Shown piece after piece: positions 35,617-43,179 of a stretch of 64,000 nucleotides of DNA. Position numbers and translations under genes: made by a program. The notes beneath the pieces were generated by a model, which did not search any database, was not told the DNA's origin, and was given only the letters and a program-made list of their open reading frames with translations. Numbering within the stretch: the first letter of the stretch is position 1; each line of letters opens with the position of its first letter. The DNA is from Candidatus Coatesiibacteriota bacterium (lineage in GTDB: Bacteria; RBG-13-66-14; B26-G2; JAUVZD01): NCBI GenBank assembly GCA_030602715.1, contig JAUVZD010000007.1, forward strand, positions 77,581-141,580, read 5' to 3'.

Positions 35617-36735
35617 ATGATCAAAAATTCCATATCCATAGTCATAGTCCCCCATTCCTCCGGCAAACCCTACACCATCTTCATCCACCGTTATCTACTC
35701 AGTTTCATCTTAGGCTTCTCCTGCCTGGCAATGCTGGGGCTTTTTGGCATAGTCTTCACCTACACCTTTGACTACATACAAATGCAAGAGGCGTTAGAGC
35801 CCACCAAATTGGAGATAGACAACCTGATTGAGGAAAACCAGATGCTCAACGGTGCCATAACCCAAGCCTCCAATCATCAGGATGACCTTGCCCTACTGCT
35901 CAAGGAGGAGCGAGAACAACACGCCCAGGCGCTTATTGAGATACACGACCGATTGAAGATGCTGGAGAAATTTTATGCCGACCTGCGAATTATGGCTGGC
36001 TTCAAGCTAAATGTTGACGACGCCAAGGCTCTGGACAAAGTCGCTCCCGACCCCCTGGACGCCCACGGTGGTCCGGTGGAAGTCATGGACAAGCACTTTG
36101 AGGGGATAAACCTTTTCTCCATGCCCCAGGATGAATATCTCCAATTGATGCAAACCAAGGAAATGGCTTTAAAGAATGAGCTCAACGAGCACATCACCAC
36201 CATCCAGAAGCTGAAGATGCTTCTGGAGAATAAAGCCTCTCTCGTTGACGATGTGCCTTCAATGGTGCCGGTGGAGGGCACCATAACCTCCTTGTTCGGT
36301 GAGGTGCGTAAGGGCGGCACCCACGGCGGATTGGATATCGCTGCACCCGAGGGCACCCCCATCCACGCTCCGGCTGACGGCGTGGTGGTGAAGTCCGGTC
36401 CAAGTATGGGTTACGGGAGGGTCATCATCATTGACCACGGCAACGGCTACACCACCCGCTTCGGCCACCTGAGTGGGGAGACAGTCTCCTTGGGAGATCG
36501 GGTGGAGGAAGGGGATATCATCGGCTATGTCGGCTCCACCGGCTGGGCTACCGGACCCCACCTGCACTACGAAGTGCGGTTAAACGGCGTCCCGGTTGAC
36601 CCCATCAACTACCTGAATACCAACCTACCCCAGGAACTGCTTGACAATACCGACAACCCCAACACCTCCATTGAGGAGCTACCGCCCTCCTATCCCTTTA
36701 TAGGGGACCTACCACTACAGGAAAGTGACCTTTGA
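35617..36735 (+). CDS. M23-family peptidase, membrane-anchored with coiled coil
   Basis: A 372-residue envelope protein. One membrane helix (residues ~25-50) leads into a coiled coil (~50-120 and ~165-200), then the LytM/M23 domain: GGTHGGLDIAAPEGTPIHAPADG (first zinc ligands H and D), VIIIDHGNGYTTRFGHLS and the second site GPHLHYEVR. With both the H-x3-D and H-x-H motifs intact it should cleave peptidoglycan cross-bridges, or act like the EnvC/MepM group in cell division and wall growth. The last ~30 residues are a disordered acidic tail. Single-gene unit between two terminators. Confidence 0.93.
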   Translation: MIKNSISIVIVPHSSGKPYTIFIHRYLLSFILGFSCLAMLGLFGIVFTYTFDYIQMQEALEPTKLEIDNLIEENQMLNGAITQASNHQDDLALLLKEEREQHAQALIEIHDRLKMLEKFYADLRIMAGFKLNVDDAKALDKVAPDPLDAHGGPVEVMDKHFEGINLFSMPQDEYLQLMQTKEMALKNELNEHITTIQKLKMLLENKASLVDDVPSMVPVEGTITSLFGEVRKGGTHGGLDIAAPEGTPIHAPADGVVVKSGPSMGYGRVIIIDHGNGYTTRFGHLSGETVSLGDRVEEGDIIGYVGSTGWATGPHLHYEVRLNGVPVDPINYLNTNLPQELLDNTDNPNTSIEELPPSYPFIGDLPLQESDL

Positions 36736-36814: not shown

Positions 36815-38158
36815 TCAGCGCAGTGAATTAGCCAGTTCCTCCACAATCTCAAGGACCCTGAAGATATTCTCGCCCAATATTCGCACCATCGGTTCTTTGC
36901 CAATATCTCCACGGTCATAGATGAGTTGCGGTGGCTCACCACCCTCTAAACTCTGCGCTATCCATCCCAGGGTTGTCCCCTCCTTCCCCCTCTGCTGAGG
37001 GGGCTCATCCCTTCGCTCTACAGCTTCCACTCGTAATCCCAGACCCCGAGCGGCATCAACGATCTCCTCACAGAAAGATATATTCATCCCCGCCCGTATG
37101 TTCGGCCAGCGTCTATTTACCTCCAAAACCAGTCTAGCCACATGCGACGAACCCCCCAAGCAGGGCTGACCGGTAATCAGAGGACCCTGGGGACCCTTTA
37201 CAATTCGGCTGGAAAGACCTATCACCTCCTCCACACTATCAGCTCCACCCCAGGGTATGAAGGCTATATTTATCCCCACCTCGGGGACAAAATACTCAAA
37301 TCCCTTGATCTGGGAGAGCTTCCTGAGGGCATTGGAAGTGATGTTCATAGCCTCCAGTGCGTTTTCAGCACGGGATTGGCACAAGCCGTGGCGCAGTAGC
37401 CAATCCTCTTCTCTGGAGGCTTGTAAAAGGTTATAGACAAAATACCGTGCTTTCAAAATGGATTTGAACATGTCCAATCCGAAGGTGGTATAGACGGCGA
37501 TGGCGGAAGATAGAGCACAACCCAGACCATGCCAAGTCCTTTCGCTCTCGGTTACCGCCTTGCGCTTCAACTCCCTGATCTGCCCTTTATAAAGAAAGAT
37601 ATCGCCAATTATATTATCCGGCCAGCGAACGCCGGTAGCTAAAAAATCGGTATTATACATCTCGGACAATTCATTTAGGGCGGAGACCACCTCGCTGGGA
37701 ATGGAGACATCCTTGCCGGTTAGGATGGAAAGTTCTTTGGTGTTGGGGGTTACCAGAGTGGAGATGGGAAATAGCAGGTCGGCGACCTCCCTGGGGGAAG
37801 TGTCATCTATCAAGGCTCCCCCACTGCTGGCGGAGAATACCGGGTCGTTAATTATCGGTCCCTCATAACCTTGGAGCATATCATGAATCTTCTTTGCGTT
37901 ATCAAGCGAGCCCACAGCACCTATTTTGTATGCTCTGGGATTTAACTCCTGATGAACCGCCTCAAGCTCCTTCTGGAGGAGGTCCGTGGGTATGGGAAAG
38001 AGTTCCAATACACCGTTTTTACTCGTCTGAGGCGCCAAGGCGGTCATAACCCCGGCGCCCTGGACACCGAGACAAGCAAATACCTTTATATCTGCCCCTA
38101 TACCAGCCCCACCGCTTGGGTCATAGGCAGCAATGGAGATTACACCCTCAGGTTTCAT
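36815..38158 (-). CDS. thiDN: bifunctional HMP/HMP-phosphate kinase and ThiN-type thiamine-phosphate synthase
   Basis: 447 residues in two domains. Residues ~1-250 are ThiD: SIAAYDPSGGAGIGADIKVF, GVMTALAPQT, DPVFSASSGGALID and LVTPNTKELSILTG, plus a divergent C-terminal ATP/anion loop (WHGLGCALSSAIAVY in place of the usual GTGCT). Residues ~265-430 are ThiN: ALRKLSQIKGFEYFVPEVGINIAF, SSRIVKGPQGP, GGSSHVARLVLEV and NIRAGMNISF. ThiD phosphorylates hydroxymethylpyrimidine; ThiN joins it to the thiazole, replacing ThiE. The fusion is typical of archaea and Thermotogae and scarce in ordinary bacteria. ATG 38158 follows a GAGGT site. No TPP riboswitch is seen upstream. Confidence 0.93.
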   Translation of the reverse strand: MKPEGVISIAAYDPSGGAGIGADIKVFACLGVQGAGVMTALAPQTSKNGVLELFPIPTDLLQKELEAVHQELNPRAYKIGAVGSLDNAKKIHDMLQGYEGPIINDPVFSASSGGALIDDTSPREVADLLFPISTLVTPNTKELSILTGKDVSIPSEVVSALNELSEMYNTDFLATGVRWPDNIIGDIFLYKGQIRELKRKAVTESERTWHGLGCALSSAIAVYTTFGLDMFKSILKARYFVYNLLQASREEDWLLRHGLCQSRAENALEAMNITSNALRKLSQIKGFEYFVPEVGINIAFIPWGGADSVEEVIGLSSRIVKGPQGPLITGQPCLGGSSHVARLVLEVNRRWPNIRAGMNISFCEEIVDAARGLGLRVEAVERRDEPPQQRGKEGTTLGWIAQSLEGGEPPQLIYDRGDIGKEPMVRILGENIFRVLEIVEELANSLR

Positions 38159-38185
38159 ATCCAACCTCTGAAGACACTGCAACAG

Positions 38186-38205
38186 AAAAGGGGCGCTCTC
38201 GCCCC
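38186..38205 (-). terminator. terminator after the GYF/AgmX gene
   Basis: On the minus strand, GGGGCG with CGCCCC around a four-base loop, followed by TTTTCTG. It closes the ExbB-ExbD-AgmX operon. Confidence 0.85.
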
Positions 38206-38260: not shown

Positions 38261-39778
38261 CTAAGCTGCTGAGAAGAAGATGAAAGGATAAACAATTATA
38301 GTATCACCACTGGATATGGTGGGGAAGTTCCAACCATAGACTACAGAGACTACCTCACTCTCCATGGTGGGATTATTCATAGTTGACGATATAAGGTAAC
38401 AGTTGGAAACTCGTCCGGAGGCGGAGATGGTAAAGCTGACCACAATCTTTCCCTGAAGCGTTGGGTTTGTCTTAAGGTATTTCTTGTAGATGTATTCTAA
38501 ACCTACTTTATGCCTTTCTATTACCTCCCGAATGATGACAGAGGAGCGGTTAGCATCAGCGGAACCTTCGCCGGAGATACTGCTGGGTGATGTGAGGGAG
38601 ACACCTCCACTAACCTCCATCTCAAAACCCACCCCTCCCCCTCCCCCAGAGCCCAGCATGGAGATCAGATCGCCCAGACCACTGCCACCTCCACCACCCA
38701 AACCCAAGCCACCACCTCCACCACCAATGGAAGAGTAACCACCGGTCTTCAAACCCCCGATACCGCCGATGATTCCATCAAAATCACCAGCACCTCCCCC
38801 ACCGAGGATATCTACTACACCACCGCCAGGACCATCAGAGGTTATCAATCCCAAAACTCCGTAACCCAGAGGTCCTTCGCCCAGACCGGCTCCACCTGGA
38901 CCATGCCCCCCACCTGAGCCTCCACCACCAGCTCCTTCGCCCTCGCCCACACCGAAGCCCGTTCCTTCACCGTCGGGGATATCCGCAAACATATCCTCAT
39001 CCGTCACCAGCTCAGCAATTCTCCCGGTAATATCCAGTATGTCCTCCTCCTCCCTCTCGGGGAGATGCAGATAAAATGCTGACGCCATGAAAAGCCCGCA
39101 TAGAATGGCGATTGAGATGAAAGAAAGTATGAAGTTACGGTCATCGTGATATTCAGACATTTCCCGGCGATATTGGGGCTCCTCCAGCTTTCCGTCTTTG
39201 AACAGCTCACTAATGGGTAAAGGTTCACCCCGCACCAGCCTTCTCTCCGGTTTTTCCGTGGATATTTGCGGTTCTTGAGCGGGCTCAGCTTCCACGTCTG
39301 CAGTAACGACATCTTCCACACCTCTACTCATTGCCCGTTCCCGTAAAGTCTCCTCTAGTATATTCTTCTCCCCTACGCTTACTTCCCGCTCAGGGGCAAA
39401 GTCAGTCGGCCAATCCTCCCCCAGCGCCCTGTCAGCCCGCATCCACTTACCCCGGTAAAAAACTGAGTCGCCGGCTTCAACCCGCCCTATTTTTACCAAG
39501 CCGACTATCTCCTCCCGGGTGATAGGACCAAGGTTTTTCTCTCCCGCCCGCAAGTAGAAGAAATCCTCACCACCGGTGCCAGCTTTCCTCAATTCATACT
39601 GTTCAATAAGCGTAACCAGCGAGGAAACCACCCCCACCGAAACCCATCTCTTCTGCTGAGGAGACCAGATATAGTGGTTTCTCAACACTTGACCTTCCAG
39701 TGCCTGTTGTTTAACCTCTTCTACGGTCATCGGCCCGAATCTCTCCGAGCCCTTTGCTATGTATATGCCAGCACTCAT
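38261..39778 (-). CDS. glycine-rich AgmX/PglI-type energy-transducer protein with two GYF-like domains
   Basis: 505 residues. The N-terminus carries two GYF/DUF4339 modules: KGSERFGPMTVEEVKQ...W (residues ~8-50) and GEKNLGPITREEIVGLV...W (~75-115). A single membrane helix follows (~residues 213-233), then ~150 residues of glycine-rich linker (repeats such as GGGAGDFDGIIGGIGGL). The C-terminal AgmX/PglI domain (~400-505: VIIREVIERHKVGLEYIYKK, KIVVSFTISASGRV and VYPFIFFSA) resembles TonB C-termini. Expected role: spans the inner membrane, couples ExbB/ExbD motion to the periplasm or outer membrane, and reads a cytoplasmic proline-rich partner via GYF. Last gene of the exbB operon, paralogous to the gene at 39881-41260. 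Confidence 0.88.
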   Translation of the reverse strand: MSAGIYIAKGSERFGPMTVEEVKQQALEGQVLRNHYIWSPQQKRWVSVGVVSSLVTLIEQYELRKAGTGGEDFFYLRAGEKNLGPITREEIVGLVKIGRVEAGDSVFYRGKWMRADRALGEDWPTDFAPEREVSVGEKNILEETLRERAMSRGVEDVVTADVEAEPAQEPQISTEKPERRLVRGEPLPISELFKDGKLEEPQYRREMSEYHDDRNFILSFISIAILCGLFMASAFYLHLPEREEEDILDITGRIAELVTDEDMFADIPDGEGTGFGVGEGEGAGGGGSGGGHGPGGAGLGEGPLGYGVLGLITSDGPGGGVVDILGGGGAGDFDGIIGGIGGLKTGGYSSIGGGGGGLGLGGGGGSGLGDLISMLGSGGGGGVGFEMEVSGGVSLTSPSSISGEGSADANRSSVIIREVIERHKVGLEYIYKKYLKTNPTLQGKIVVSFTISASGRVSNCYLISSTMNNPTMESEVVSVVYGWNFPTISSGDTIIVYPFIFFSAA

Positions 39779-39880
39779 AAAGAGAAAAATTCCTTGCAGA
39801 AGCTAGTTCACTTAATAATACTTAATCTCACCCTTCTGCAGGTCAGCACTTAATCCTTAGGGCGAATTTTCAGACCATCA

Positions 39881-41260
39881 CTAGGTTTTTATGAACACAA
39901 AGGGATAGACTACAGTTACCTCTCCACCGGAAACGGCTGGGAATTTCCAACCGTAGATACGGCTGGCTATTTGCGATTCCATCTCCGGGCAGTTCATGGT
40001 GGAGGAAGAGACATAAGCGTTGGTGACTATTCCCTGAGCGTTGATTGAAAAAGTAACCACTACCTTTCCACTTAGGTTAGGATTCTTCTTTAGTTGGGCA
40101 TTATACACCGATTGCAAGCCAGCCATGTGGGCGGAGATCACATTGGAGATAGCCGAAGAGCTACGACCGGATTCCCCTTCTGCAGTTCCACTAATACTTT
40201 GAGGACCGGAAAGGGTTACCATCCCCACAGTTTCCAACTCACTGGTATCAAACCCACCACCACCACCGCCACCCAACAATGCCGCCAGGTCCATTCCACC
40301 GGGACCGCCCAGACCTCCGAGACCGAGACCCCCACCCCCACCCAACCCCCCACCGGAACCGCTGGTAGTCAGACCGCCGATACCTCCAAGGATCGCATCT
40401 ATATCACCAGCTCCACCTCCACCTCCAAGTATATCAACCACTGAGGGACCTCCGGAGGGTCCTTCGGTGGTTAAAAGCCCAAGCAAACCGGTGCCGTATA
40501 CTCCGGGTCCATCATCAGTCCCCGGTCCATAGTTTGTCCCTCCTCCCCCTCCACCGCCAGGACCGATTGCCTCACCTTCTCCCTCGCCGACACCCATCAT
40601 ACTCTCCTCCAAATCCTCAACATTTATCAACTCAGCGATTACCTCAGGTATATTCACAATCCTTAGCGAACCTCCCATTGGACCGACTTTGAAAGCGAAT
40701 ATCAAGAAGAAAACGGAAAGGGTGAGAGTGCCCAGGAATAGATAGGTGAAGTGACGGTCCTCCTCATCCATGGTGCTGGTTAAGCCCCTGCGGGTGGGCA
40801 TAATCTCGGCTATGGAGACCGGCTCCGGCGGTGCCGGTGGGGATATGTAGCCAAATCTCAAGGTCAGTTCGCCAAATTGAAGCTCTCCCTCCTTCCCTTC
40901 CACCATCTCCAGTTGATATACACCATCCTTGCGGGGAAGGAGCCCCTGAATGATCAAGGTGCGGAAATCTACATCCGAGCCCATGTAACTGACCTTGCCG
41001 GTCATCTGCTCGGTCATATTGAGTAGATAGCGGTCGGGTCCGGTCTTCTCCAGTAGGGAAAAAGCCTCACTTCCCTGCCAATCGTAATAGACAATATCGT
41101 TATCAGCGCCCCGCCCGATGGTTATCGTCTCGTCAGGGAAGAAGGTCCTCAACTTCTTCCCGTTGCGAAGTATCGTCAATCCTAACTTGCGAGGCTCAGC
41201 CGTTGCCACCCCTCCGCCGTCTATAGTGCCATCCGCCCTCTTCTTTTTTGCTAATGGCAT
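39881..41260 (-). CDS. glycine-rich AgmX/PglI-type energy-transducer protein with FHA-like N-terminus
   Basis: 459 residues with the same plan as the next gene. The cytoplasmic N-terminal ~140 residues are FHA-like (LGLTILRNGKKLRTFFPDETITIGRGADNDIVYYD; the GR and DNDI positions fit, but the usual S-x-x-H phosphothreonine pocket is absent). One membrane helix follows (~residues 175-195), then a glycine-rich linker (SVVDILGGGGGAGDIDAIL, GLGLGGLGG) and the AgmX/PglI C-terminal domain (NVISAHMAGLQSVYNAQLKKNP, KVVVTFSINAQGIV, VTVVYPFVFIKT). It probably replaces TonB as the transducer. GGGGAGG lies 8 nt before ATG. It is preceded by two exbD genes and followed by its GYF-bearing paralogue. Confidence 0.88.
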   Translation of the reverse strand: MPLAKKKRADGTIDGGGVATAEPRKLGLTILRNGKKLRTFFPDETITIGRGADNDIVYYDWQGSEAFSLLEKTGPDRYLLNMTEQMTGKVSYMGSDVDFRTLIIQGLLPRKDGVYQLEMVEGKEGELQFGELTLRFGYISPPAPPEPVSIAEIMPTRRGLTSTMDEEDRHFTYLFLGTLTLSVFFLIFAFKVGPMGGSLRIVNIPEVIAELINVEDLEESMMGVGEGEGEAIGPGGGGGGGTNYGPGTDDGPGVYGTGLLGLLTTEGPSGGPSVVDILGGGGGAGDIDAILGGIGGLTTSGSGGGLGGGGGLGLGGLGGPGGMDLAALLGGGGGGGFDTSELETVGMVTLSGPQSISGTAEGESGRSSSAISNVISAHMAGLQSVYNAQLKKNPNLSGKVVVTFSINAQGIVTNAYVSSSTMNCPEMESQIASRIYGWKFPAVSGGEVTVVYPFVFIKT

Positions 41261-41313
41261 TTATCATACCTCCCCAGGTCCAAAATCGCAAACCGAGGCA
41301 AACCCCAAAATGG

Positions 41314-41859
41314 CTATTGTTTTCTCAAAACAGCAAGAGCAATATTGCCATACTTGGAGCGACCACAGGTGTACATCACCCTGGTTAATAGGTCAAAGGT
41401 GATCAGCTTATCACCCTGTATGGTTACCTCTCCCTTGAAGGGTCGGGTGGGGTCTTGCTCAGCAATAGCCTCCTTGATCCTGCGAATACGGGTCATCTCC
41501 ACCAGCAGGTTATCTATGACCAAATCCTGGTCGTTCAGGGCGTCCTCCGTGGTGCAAACCGCTGACCCCTCCACCAGTATATGTTTATTTGTTACCGCAA
41601 CAATAACCGACTGAACCGGATTCTTGATGGATTCGGAGGCAGGTAGCTTGAGGTCGGGAGCCACGGACATAATATCCCCCTCTGCGGAGTAGGTCATAAA
41701 CAGGAAGACGACCAGAATAACGAAGGTGTCTATCAATGAGACCAACAGAATTCGTACTTCCTTCGTCCGCTCCTCCATTATCCGTTCTTTTATCCGCCCA
41801 GTCTGTTGCCCACGCCGCCCCTTCGCAGCTGCGCGGGTAGGTTTTTTAGCTTGAGCCAA
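41314..41859 (-). CDS. exbD: ExbD/TolR-family protein (second copy)
   Basis: 181 residues: a basic cytoplasmic N-terminus (~40 residues, longer than usual), one membrane helix with the proton-carrying aspartate (VRILLVSLIDTFVILVVFLFM) and a periplasmic domain (VSVAPDLKLP-like, then VIVAVTNKHILVEG and GDKLITFDLLTRVMYTCG). It works with ExbB as a proton-driven motor. Initiation is at TTG 41859 with AAGGAGG 9 nt upstream. The first exbD ends 55 bp upstream. Confidence 0.93.
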   Translation of the reverse strand: MAQAKKPTRAAAKGRRGQQTGRIKERIMEERTKEVRILLVSLIDTFVILVVFLFMTYSAEGDIMSVAPDLKLPASESIKNPVQSVIVAVTNKHILVEGSAVCTTEDALNDQDLVIDNLLVEMTRIRRIKEAIAEQDPTRPFKGEVTIQGDKLITFDLLTRVMYTCGRSKYGNIALAVLRKQ

Positions 41860-41914
41860 CGAACCCCACCTCCTTAACTATTGCTGGTCCACGCCGGTTG
41901 CCCTCAACTTCCGA

Positions 41915-42394
41915 TTAGGTGATCTTCGGCGCCAGGGCGATCTCCGGCAGGTCTTTCGCCAAACAACAATCCATGGTCTTGATTATGTCCTCGTACATTA
42001 TCTGTTGTTCCGCCGCAATGATTACACTGGTCTGACTGGGAAACTCATCCTTTATCTGCTCTAACTGCCCCGACAAACCATCCCAATCATACTCCCCACC
42101 TCGTTTGGGAATCGGCGGAAGAATTGCACCCGAACCCCCTACAATAAAACCTTGGTCAGTTATTATCACCGTGAGGTTAAGCTGTTGCTTTTTCTCCTCC
42201 TCTAATTCGGTCCCTTCGCCTGCGCCAGCAGCGGTAGGAAGATTGATCTCAATGATCGACGTCTGCAGAATACAGGCAGTCATCAATAGAAAGACCAAAA
42301 GCACAGCCATTATGTCAATGAAAGGAACTAGCTCTAATTCCTCATCAACCCTCTGCTTCTTCCTCCTTACTTTCCCTGAGACCGGATATGCCAT
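41915..42394 (-). CDS. exbD: ExbD/TolR-family protein (first copy)
   Basis: 159 residues. The membrane helix carries the conserved Asp in LELVPFIDIMAVLLVFLLM. The periplasmic part has IIEINLPTA, LTVIITDQGFIVGG, a longer-than-usual loop (about residues 85-110) and FPSQTSVIIAAEQQIMYEDIIKTMD. It is the more typical of the two ExbD proteins in this operon and starts 7 bp after exbB. Confidence 0.94.
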   Translation of the reverse strand: MAYPVSGKVRRKKQRVDEELELVPFIDIMAVLLVFLLMTACILQTSIIEINLPTAAGAGEGTELEEEKKQQLNLTVIITDQGFIVGGSGAILPPIPKRGGEYDWDGLSGQLEQIKDEFPSQTSVIIAAEQQIMYEDIIKTMDCCLAKDLPEIALAPKIT

Positions 42395-42401
42395 CGCCTA
42401 A

Positions 42402-43034
42402 CTACCTCCGCACTTCTTCCAGAGTGTTCAATATCTTTACCACACTGGAGTCTATGTCAGCCATTATCTTGTTTGAACGACCCACCAAAAAACCGTGGAA
42501 GACTATCGCAGCGATAGCTACAAATAGCCCAAAGGCAGTGCAGTGCATAGCTTCGGAGATGCCTGCGGAGAGGATGGCGGTCTTCTCTGCGGCACTGACC
42601 CCAGCCAAGGAACCGAAACAGGCGATCAGACCGGAGATGGTTCCCAAAAGACCAAGTAGAACCGCCACATTAGCCAGCATACCCAAATAAGGGATGCGTC
42701 GGTCAAGTCTCGGAATCTCCACCAGACTGACCTCGTCGGTCACCTGCTGTATGTCCTCCTCACCCTCCATAAAAGCCTGCAAAGCTGATTTTACGATGCG
42801 GGTCAGGGGTGTATCGTGCCTATTACACAGGTTGATAGCACCATTGATGTCCCGCTTCTTTATCAGCTTTAAACATTCCAGGGTGAAAGGCTCCGCTTTG
42901 ATGTTGGACTTTATGGCAACATACCATATCCGCTCAATGATGATACTAAAGGCAAAGACCATAGTCGCCAAAATGAGATGCATCCCCCACTTCCCGGCCA
43001 TATACCATCCAGCTACACCCTGTAACCATTCCAT
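42402..43034 (-). CDS. exbB: ExbB/TolQ/MotA-family proton channel
   Basis: 210 residues with three membrane helices: an N-terminal one (LILATMVFAFSIIIERIWY), then the pair containing YLGMLANVAVLLGLLGTISGLIACFG (TolQ/ExbB signature) and EAMHCTAFGLFVAIAAIVFHGFL. Head of the five-gene minus-strand operon. Together with the two ExbD proteins it would form the motor that moves the two AgmX-type transducers. AGGAGG lies 9 nt before ATG and a promoter ~115 bp upstream. Confidence 0.95.
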   Translation of the reverse strand: MEWLQGVAGWYMAGKWGMHLILATMVFAFSIIIERIWYVAIKSNIKAEPFTLECLKLIKKRDINGAINLCNRHDTPLTRIVKSALQAFMEGEEDIQQVTDEVSLVEIPRLDRRIPYLGMLANVAVLLGLLGTISGLIACFGSLAGVSAAEKTAILSAGISEAMHCTAFGLFVAIAAIVFHGFLVGRSNKIMADIDSSVVKILNTLEEVRR

Positions 43035-43150: not shown

Positions 43151-43179
43151 AACATACCACGAAAGGGTTATTTTGTCAA
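43151..43179 (-). promoter_or_regulatory. promoter of the exbB operon
   Basis: On the minus strand, TTGACA (43179-43174), a 17-bp spacer and TATGTT (43156-43151). The leader is ~110 nt. Confidence 0.7.

Follow-up and report, generated by a model that had tools for sequence, protein, structure and literature searches.

Luciano et al. (2011; PMC3169522) delineated an Agl/Glt core of gltC, gltD, gltE, gltG and aglRQS that acts as a functional complex, with a function that is unknown outside gliding bacteria, and that is insufficient on its own to drive motility. In Myxococcus, FHA and TonB-like domains occur together in GltG (PMC3169522), and the same motor, working with Nfs proteins in the Agl-Nfs machine, transports Exo, a polymer that a Wza homologue exports (PMC3858216). 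It has been stated as an open question whether the ExbD-type motor subunits AglQ and AglS dimerize with themselves or with each other (PMC9389320). We analyzed a 64,000-nucleotide stretch of Candidatus Coatesbacteria DNA (the window, from genome G000) that contains a module of five minus-strand genes, namely exbB, two exbD genes and two genes for TonB-like transducers, with spacers of 7-102 bases. A first-pass annotation had placed these five genes here, and gene calls, Pfam and NCBIfam confirmed all of them. We favor, with a probability of about 0.6, the reading that this operon encodes the inner-membrane part of an envelope machine of Agl/Glt(-Nfs) type, which probably has surface polysaccharide as its load and is not a device for nutrient uptake.

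Conservation of the module and kinship of its motor

The module is real and conserved. The order exbB-exbD-exbD-FHA-like-GYF, the recurrence of which had been named in the first-pass annotation as a check, is identical in six relatives (G001-G006). Named relatives of the GltG-type transducer, the first of the two, are Candidatus Coatesbacteria assemblies. Two assemblies labelled Zixiibacteriota (L066 and L067), perhaps wrongly, match G003 and G004, genomes placed in the window's class. Family f5 of this phylum also has the motor and a GltG-type gene; after them come, in most cases, a GYF protein of another kind, with a coiled coil, and an M23 peptidase.

Proteins from similar operons of many bacterial families form, together with myxobacterial AglR, one clade of the ExbB tree (support 100/99). 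This clade includes the window's ExbB and leaves out E. coli TolQ and ExbB as well as the ExbBs encoded on contig C3 of the window's own genome. In the ExbD tree, the first ExbD clusters with myxobacterial AglQ (98/89) and the second with AglS (89/79). A concatenated tree of ExbB and both ExbDs places the window's class as sister to two myxobacterial AglRQS sets (95/92). Judged by its sequences, the window motor is a close sister of the AglRQS gliding motor. A single clade of all Coatesbacteria was rejected in the concatenated motor tree (approximately unbiased test, p-AU 0.016), and transfer or an old duplication may account for this non-monophyly.

The resemblance to AglRQS, GltG and GltJ of M. 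xanthus extends to gene order (one ExbB and two ExbDs in R-Q-S order) and to the presence of FHA-related and GYF-related TonB-like transducers. The window differs in that all five genes form one operon and in that a canonical FHA domain is absent. A myxobacterium-type genome among those analyzed, G041, encodes GltG (1033.6 bits), GltJ (908 bits) and the adhesin CglB (569.6 bits), and its C32 locus combines an ExbB with an AglQ-like ExbD of 162 amino acids (aa), the published length of AglQ, and an AglS-like ExbD.

The two ExbDs of such operons are not equivalent at the membrane aspartate. We compared 42 operons, with close relatives among them, at the position corresponding to Asp25 of E. coli ExbD. 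The second ExbD has Asp in all 42 operons. The first has it in 11, and in the other 31 the residue is Asn (23), Gly (5) or Ser (3). Both ExbDs have the Asp in the window's class, in the myxobacterial AglQ/AglS sets, in L068/L069 and in family f25. The pattern suggests that in most lineages the two ExbDs pair up as a heterodimer and have separate roles, because the first ExbD usually lacks the Asp and the second always has it.

Heads and tails of the two transducers

AgmX and PglI are GltJ and GltG, respectively, and Myxococcus GltJ has a zinc ribbon and a GYF domain (profile searches; PDB 7z3c). The pairing of FHA and GYF transducers is an already known theme, since GltG has the FHA and GltJ the GYF domain in Myxococcus. 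As the first-pass annotation had proposed, both window transducers end in an AgmX/PglI domain, with scores well above the 40-bit cut-off of NCBIfam model NF033768 (Table 1). The tie to the Myxococcus AgmX/PglI family is in fact closer than had been claimed, as the motor is also sister to AglRQS. With its transmembrane (TM) helix, linker and AgmX/PglI C-terminus, the first transducer has the GltG-type layout found in the Agl/Glt core.

The cytoplasmic head of this GltG-type transducer had been called FHA-like. Pfam found no FHA domain in the window protein and a single match among 11 homologues (E = 0.019). In a profile-profile comparison with hhalign, the head matched domain 2 of myxobacterial GltG, the one nearest the membrane (probability 99.4), and canonical FHA (96.9; GYF control 0.2). 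The canonical SRxH and SNGTxVNG phosphothreonine-binding motifs are absent from the head. A PDB fold search with a structural model (six sequences, low-confidence stretches) gave no confident match. From these comparisons, the head is best seen as a degenerate domain that shares ancestry with the second domain of GltG and, more remotely, with FHA. The original call thus fails as a Pfam assignment and holds as remote homology. The suggestion that this end reads phosphoproteins finds no support, as the binding motif is missing. A canonical cytoplasmic FHA domain in GltG is likewise missing in many relatives that have the core.

In the second transducer, Pfam detects GYF_2 once. A second copy is indicated by a repeated GP...W pattern and by a duplicated strand-helix pattern in the structural model, in agreement with the double GYF of the first-pass annotation. 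PDB matches of the model include 7z3c, the solved GYF domain of GltJ. Compared with GltJ of M. xanthus, the window protein has a doubled GYF, lacks a zinc ribbon (none found with Pfam or NCBIfam) and has a GltG-type tail (81.9 bits with the GltG model versus 36.3 bits with the GltJ model, which has a cut-off of 450 and gives 908 bits for the true GltJ of G041). The possibility that the GYF gene is a GltJ orthologue was rejected on account of the missing zinc ribbon and the higher score of the tail with GltG.

Between them, the two transducer tails share 49% identity, and each is mostly closer to its own orthologues (47-60% and 52-58%), which is consistent with a duplication before the class diversified and an exchange of cytoplasmic heads. 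We also considered gene conversion between the two genes and saw no sign of it, orthologues being mostly closer than paralogues. Searches of PDB sequences with the transducers returned just weak TonB matches or noise. Elsewhere in the same genome, on contig C4, a third TonB-like transducer (L009:9670-10842) combines a GYF domain, a TM helix, a coiled coil and an AgmX tail; its counterpart adjoins the motor operon in family f5.

Proposed outer parts and load, and alternative readings

Large tetratricopeptide repeat (TPR) lipoprotein genes lie directly upstream of exbB in relatives of family f3 and in several other families. These lipoproteins are GltD/E-like, and one in G027 scores as GltE (69.1 bits, under the cut-off of 225). 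Their homologues in the window's genome sit on contig C11, where genes for a barrel-like protein, a TPR protein, two TPR lipoproteins and a 166-aa protein follow each other in an order common to G000 and G001. Near the C-terminus of the last C11 TPR lipoprotein (L095:15148-17631, 827 aa) there is a weak match to a sugar-binding domain of the glycoside hydrolase 2 (GH2) type (E = 1.1e-5). The motor and the GltG-type transducer are features shared with the Agl/Glt core (PMC3169522), and the large TPR proteins may be a further one. All these parts lie in one cluster in family f3 and are split over two contigs in the window's genome, which in addition has the extra GYF transducer and belongs to a phylum outside that survey.

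Genes for Wza, Wzc and a ligase, or for Wzz, flank such operons in many genomes. For a quantitative estimate, we considered all Poly_export genes (Pfam; Wza-type exporters) of 54 genomes, a non-random sample of relatives chosen by kinship and profile match, and calculated the expectation from gene density. Eleven of the 54 genomes had a Poly_export gene at most 5 kb from the site (0.34 expected). After removal of the seed loci that had prompted the idea, the count was 9 of 48 (0.31 expected), and with one genome per family it was 7 of 33 (0.21 expected). Such counts were reached in 0 of a million simulated draws. The density calculation replaced a control of 19 regions for polysaccharide genes (1/19), which was too small.

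We propose that an AglRQS-like proton motor, made of ExbB and two different ExbDs, would pull or turn two TonB-like transducers, one GltG-type and one GYF-headed. Through glycine-rich arms that cross the periplasm, the transducers would reach the outer half of the machine, made up of TPR lipoproteins and a likely outer-membrane barrel, for which the C11 genes would code. The load may be surface polysaccharide, as for Agl-Nfs with its spore-coat polymer, rather than the whole cell in gliding. We are highly confident that the machine is of Agl/Glt type, and its coupling to the C11 set of TPR and barrel proteins appears probable; a polysaccharide-related function is slightly favored by the genomic neighborhoods. 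The likeness to Agl-Nfs (PMC3858216) consists in the motor family and in the link of relatives to Wza-type polysaccharide export; no Nfs genes were identified here.

Several points weigh against this proposal. The TPR and barrel genes lie on a different contig from the module. The barrel was called by appearance alone and has no Pfam match, and the TPR proteins score alike with many families, the best specific one being GltC (31.6 bits, cut-off 450). G000 itself lacks a Poly_export gene in the vicinity of either the module or the C11 set, so that the polysaccharide link is by kinship only. To our knowledge, there has been no experiment on any member of Coatesbacteria.

True gliding motility, in which MglA-controlled AglRQS-GltG-GltJ complexes travel along the cell and push the substrate via outer-membrane adhesins, would fit the sister relationship of the motor to AglRQS and the GYF head, as in GltJ. 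It would also fit an mglB-mglA pair on contig C12 of G000, in which MglA (L213:8861-9445) was named by sequence motifs (Pfam Arf, 33 bits) and MglB (L213:8340-8840) scores 100.5 bits, below the cut-off of 200. However, MglA is not specific to such gliders and is present also in bacteria that do not glide in this manner. CglB, detected in the gliding-type myxobacterium G041, was not found by profile search (NF033757) in any of seven Coatesbacteria (G000 and six others), and the GYF transducer reaches only 36 bits with GltJ, whose zinc ribbon it lacks. Moreover, the core alone does not suffice for motility (Luciano et al., 2011). We consider gliding unlikely.

The systems ExbBD-TonB and TolQRA have a homologous motor and a TonB-like C-terminus, from which the window is set apart by a separate ExbB clade, two unlike ExbDs, cytoplasmic GYF and FHA-like heads, glycine-rich linkers and the absence of an adjacent receptor, TolB or Pal. 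Nutrient uptake with two TonB proteins would account for ExbB, ExbD and the TonB-like C-termini, and the genome has three TonB-dependent receptors. All three are on contig C3, where a second energizer cluster, ExbB-ExbB-ExbD-ExbD (L011:7177-9861), is also encoded, and there is no receptor match on the window's contig, in line with the earlier remark that no TonB receptor is nearby. In addition, TonB_C remains below the Pfam cut-off and the window's ExbB falls outside the E. coli ExbB/TolQ branch, which makes this explanation scarcely credible. A Tol-Pal-like system, tethering the outer membrane to the wall at division, is very improbable as well: TolQ and TolR give the best scores among single-gene profiles, and TPR genes of relatives score with YbgF/CpoB, but neither TolB nor Pal is encoded next to the module, the tree separates the window's ExbB from TolQ, and a pair of transducers with cytoplasmic domains is unlike Tol. 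The motor tree and the AgmX/PglI domains instead support the first-pass proposal of a proton-driven envelope machine with transducers, apart from TonB uptake.

Setting of the operon and significance

The features of the module are listed in Table 1. The sites by which the first-pass annotation had bounded the unit are present and well placed, although shuffled sequence contains promoter-like and terminator-like sites just as often. Neighbors of the module are a Na/H antiporter gene and a ThiD-ThiN fusion gene (Pfam). The latter follows the GYF gene both in the window (36815-38182) and in G001 (L063:4696-5994), so that local order is kept past the module. An M23 peptidase gene lies close by (35617-36735), and homologues are near the module in G007, G008, G010 and G011.

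Table 1. Features of the module, with positions in the window.
Feature	Position	Strand	Evidence
Possible promoter, TTGACA-17-TATGTT, upstream of exbB	43151..43179	-	Consensus scan, 10/12
ExbB/AglR-type motor subunit, 210 aa	42402..43034	-	Pfam MotA_ExbB 87.6 bits; 100/99 clade with AglR
First ExbD (AglQ-type), 159 aa; membrane Asp27 kept (about 42314-42316)	41915..42394	-	Pfam ExbD 72.4 bits; AglQ clade 98/89; Asp column
Second ExbD (AglS-type), 181 aa, TTG start; membrane Asp44 kept (about 41728-41730)	41314..41859	-	Pfam ExbD 41.2 bits; AglS grouping 89/79; Asp column
GltG-type transducer, 459 aa: degenerate FHA-like head, one TM helix, Gly-rich linker, AgmX/TonB-like C-terminus	39881..41260	-	NF033768 97.2 bits; GltG tail 95.5 bits
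Cytoplasmic FHA-like domain of GltG-type transducer, without phosphothreonine-binding motif	40841..41188	-	hhalign
AgmX/PglI (TonB-like) C-terminal domain of GltG-type transducer, residues 367-456	39893..40162	-	NF033768
GYF-type transducer, 505 aa: two GYF domains, one TM helix, Gly-rich linker, AgmX/TonB-like C-terminus	38261..39778	-	NF033768 89 bits; GltG tail 81.9 vs GltJ 36.3 bits
GYF domain 1, residues 6-53	39620..39763	-	Pfam GYF_2 43.4 bits; model matches include PDB 7z3c
Putative GYF domain 2, residues about 73-122, below Pfam detection	39413..39562	-	Repeated GP...W pattern and repeated predicted fold
AgmX/PglI (TonB-like) C-terminal domain of GYF-type transducer, residues 415-501	38276..38536	-	NF033768
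Possible intrinsic terminator 3' of GYF gene: six G-C pairs, then T-rich tail	38190..38205	-	Sequence pattern

Together, the above observations indicate that Myxococcota are not alone in having paired FHA-related and GYF transducers: the window encodes such a pair along with a sister of the gliding motor. The loss of the Asp in one of two ExbDs bears directly on the question of AglQ/AglS homo- or heterodimers (PMC9389320). As a broader and rather speculative generalization, which we hold to be doubtful, Agl/Glt-type machines might be bacteria-wide motors for the handling of surface polysaccharides, built on an obligate heterodimer of unlike ExbDs, with the proton-binding Asp confined to the second in most lineages and present in both in the window's class and the gliding motor; Coatesbacteria would then have added a GYF-headed transducer so that one motor takes two cytoplasmic inputs. 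As to what the core complex does outside gliding bacteria, the repeated placement of these operons beside Wza/Wzc genes offers a testable answer.

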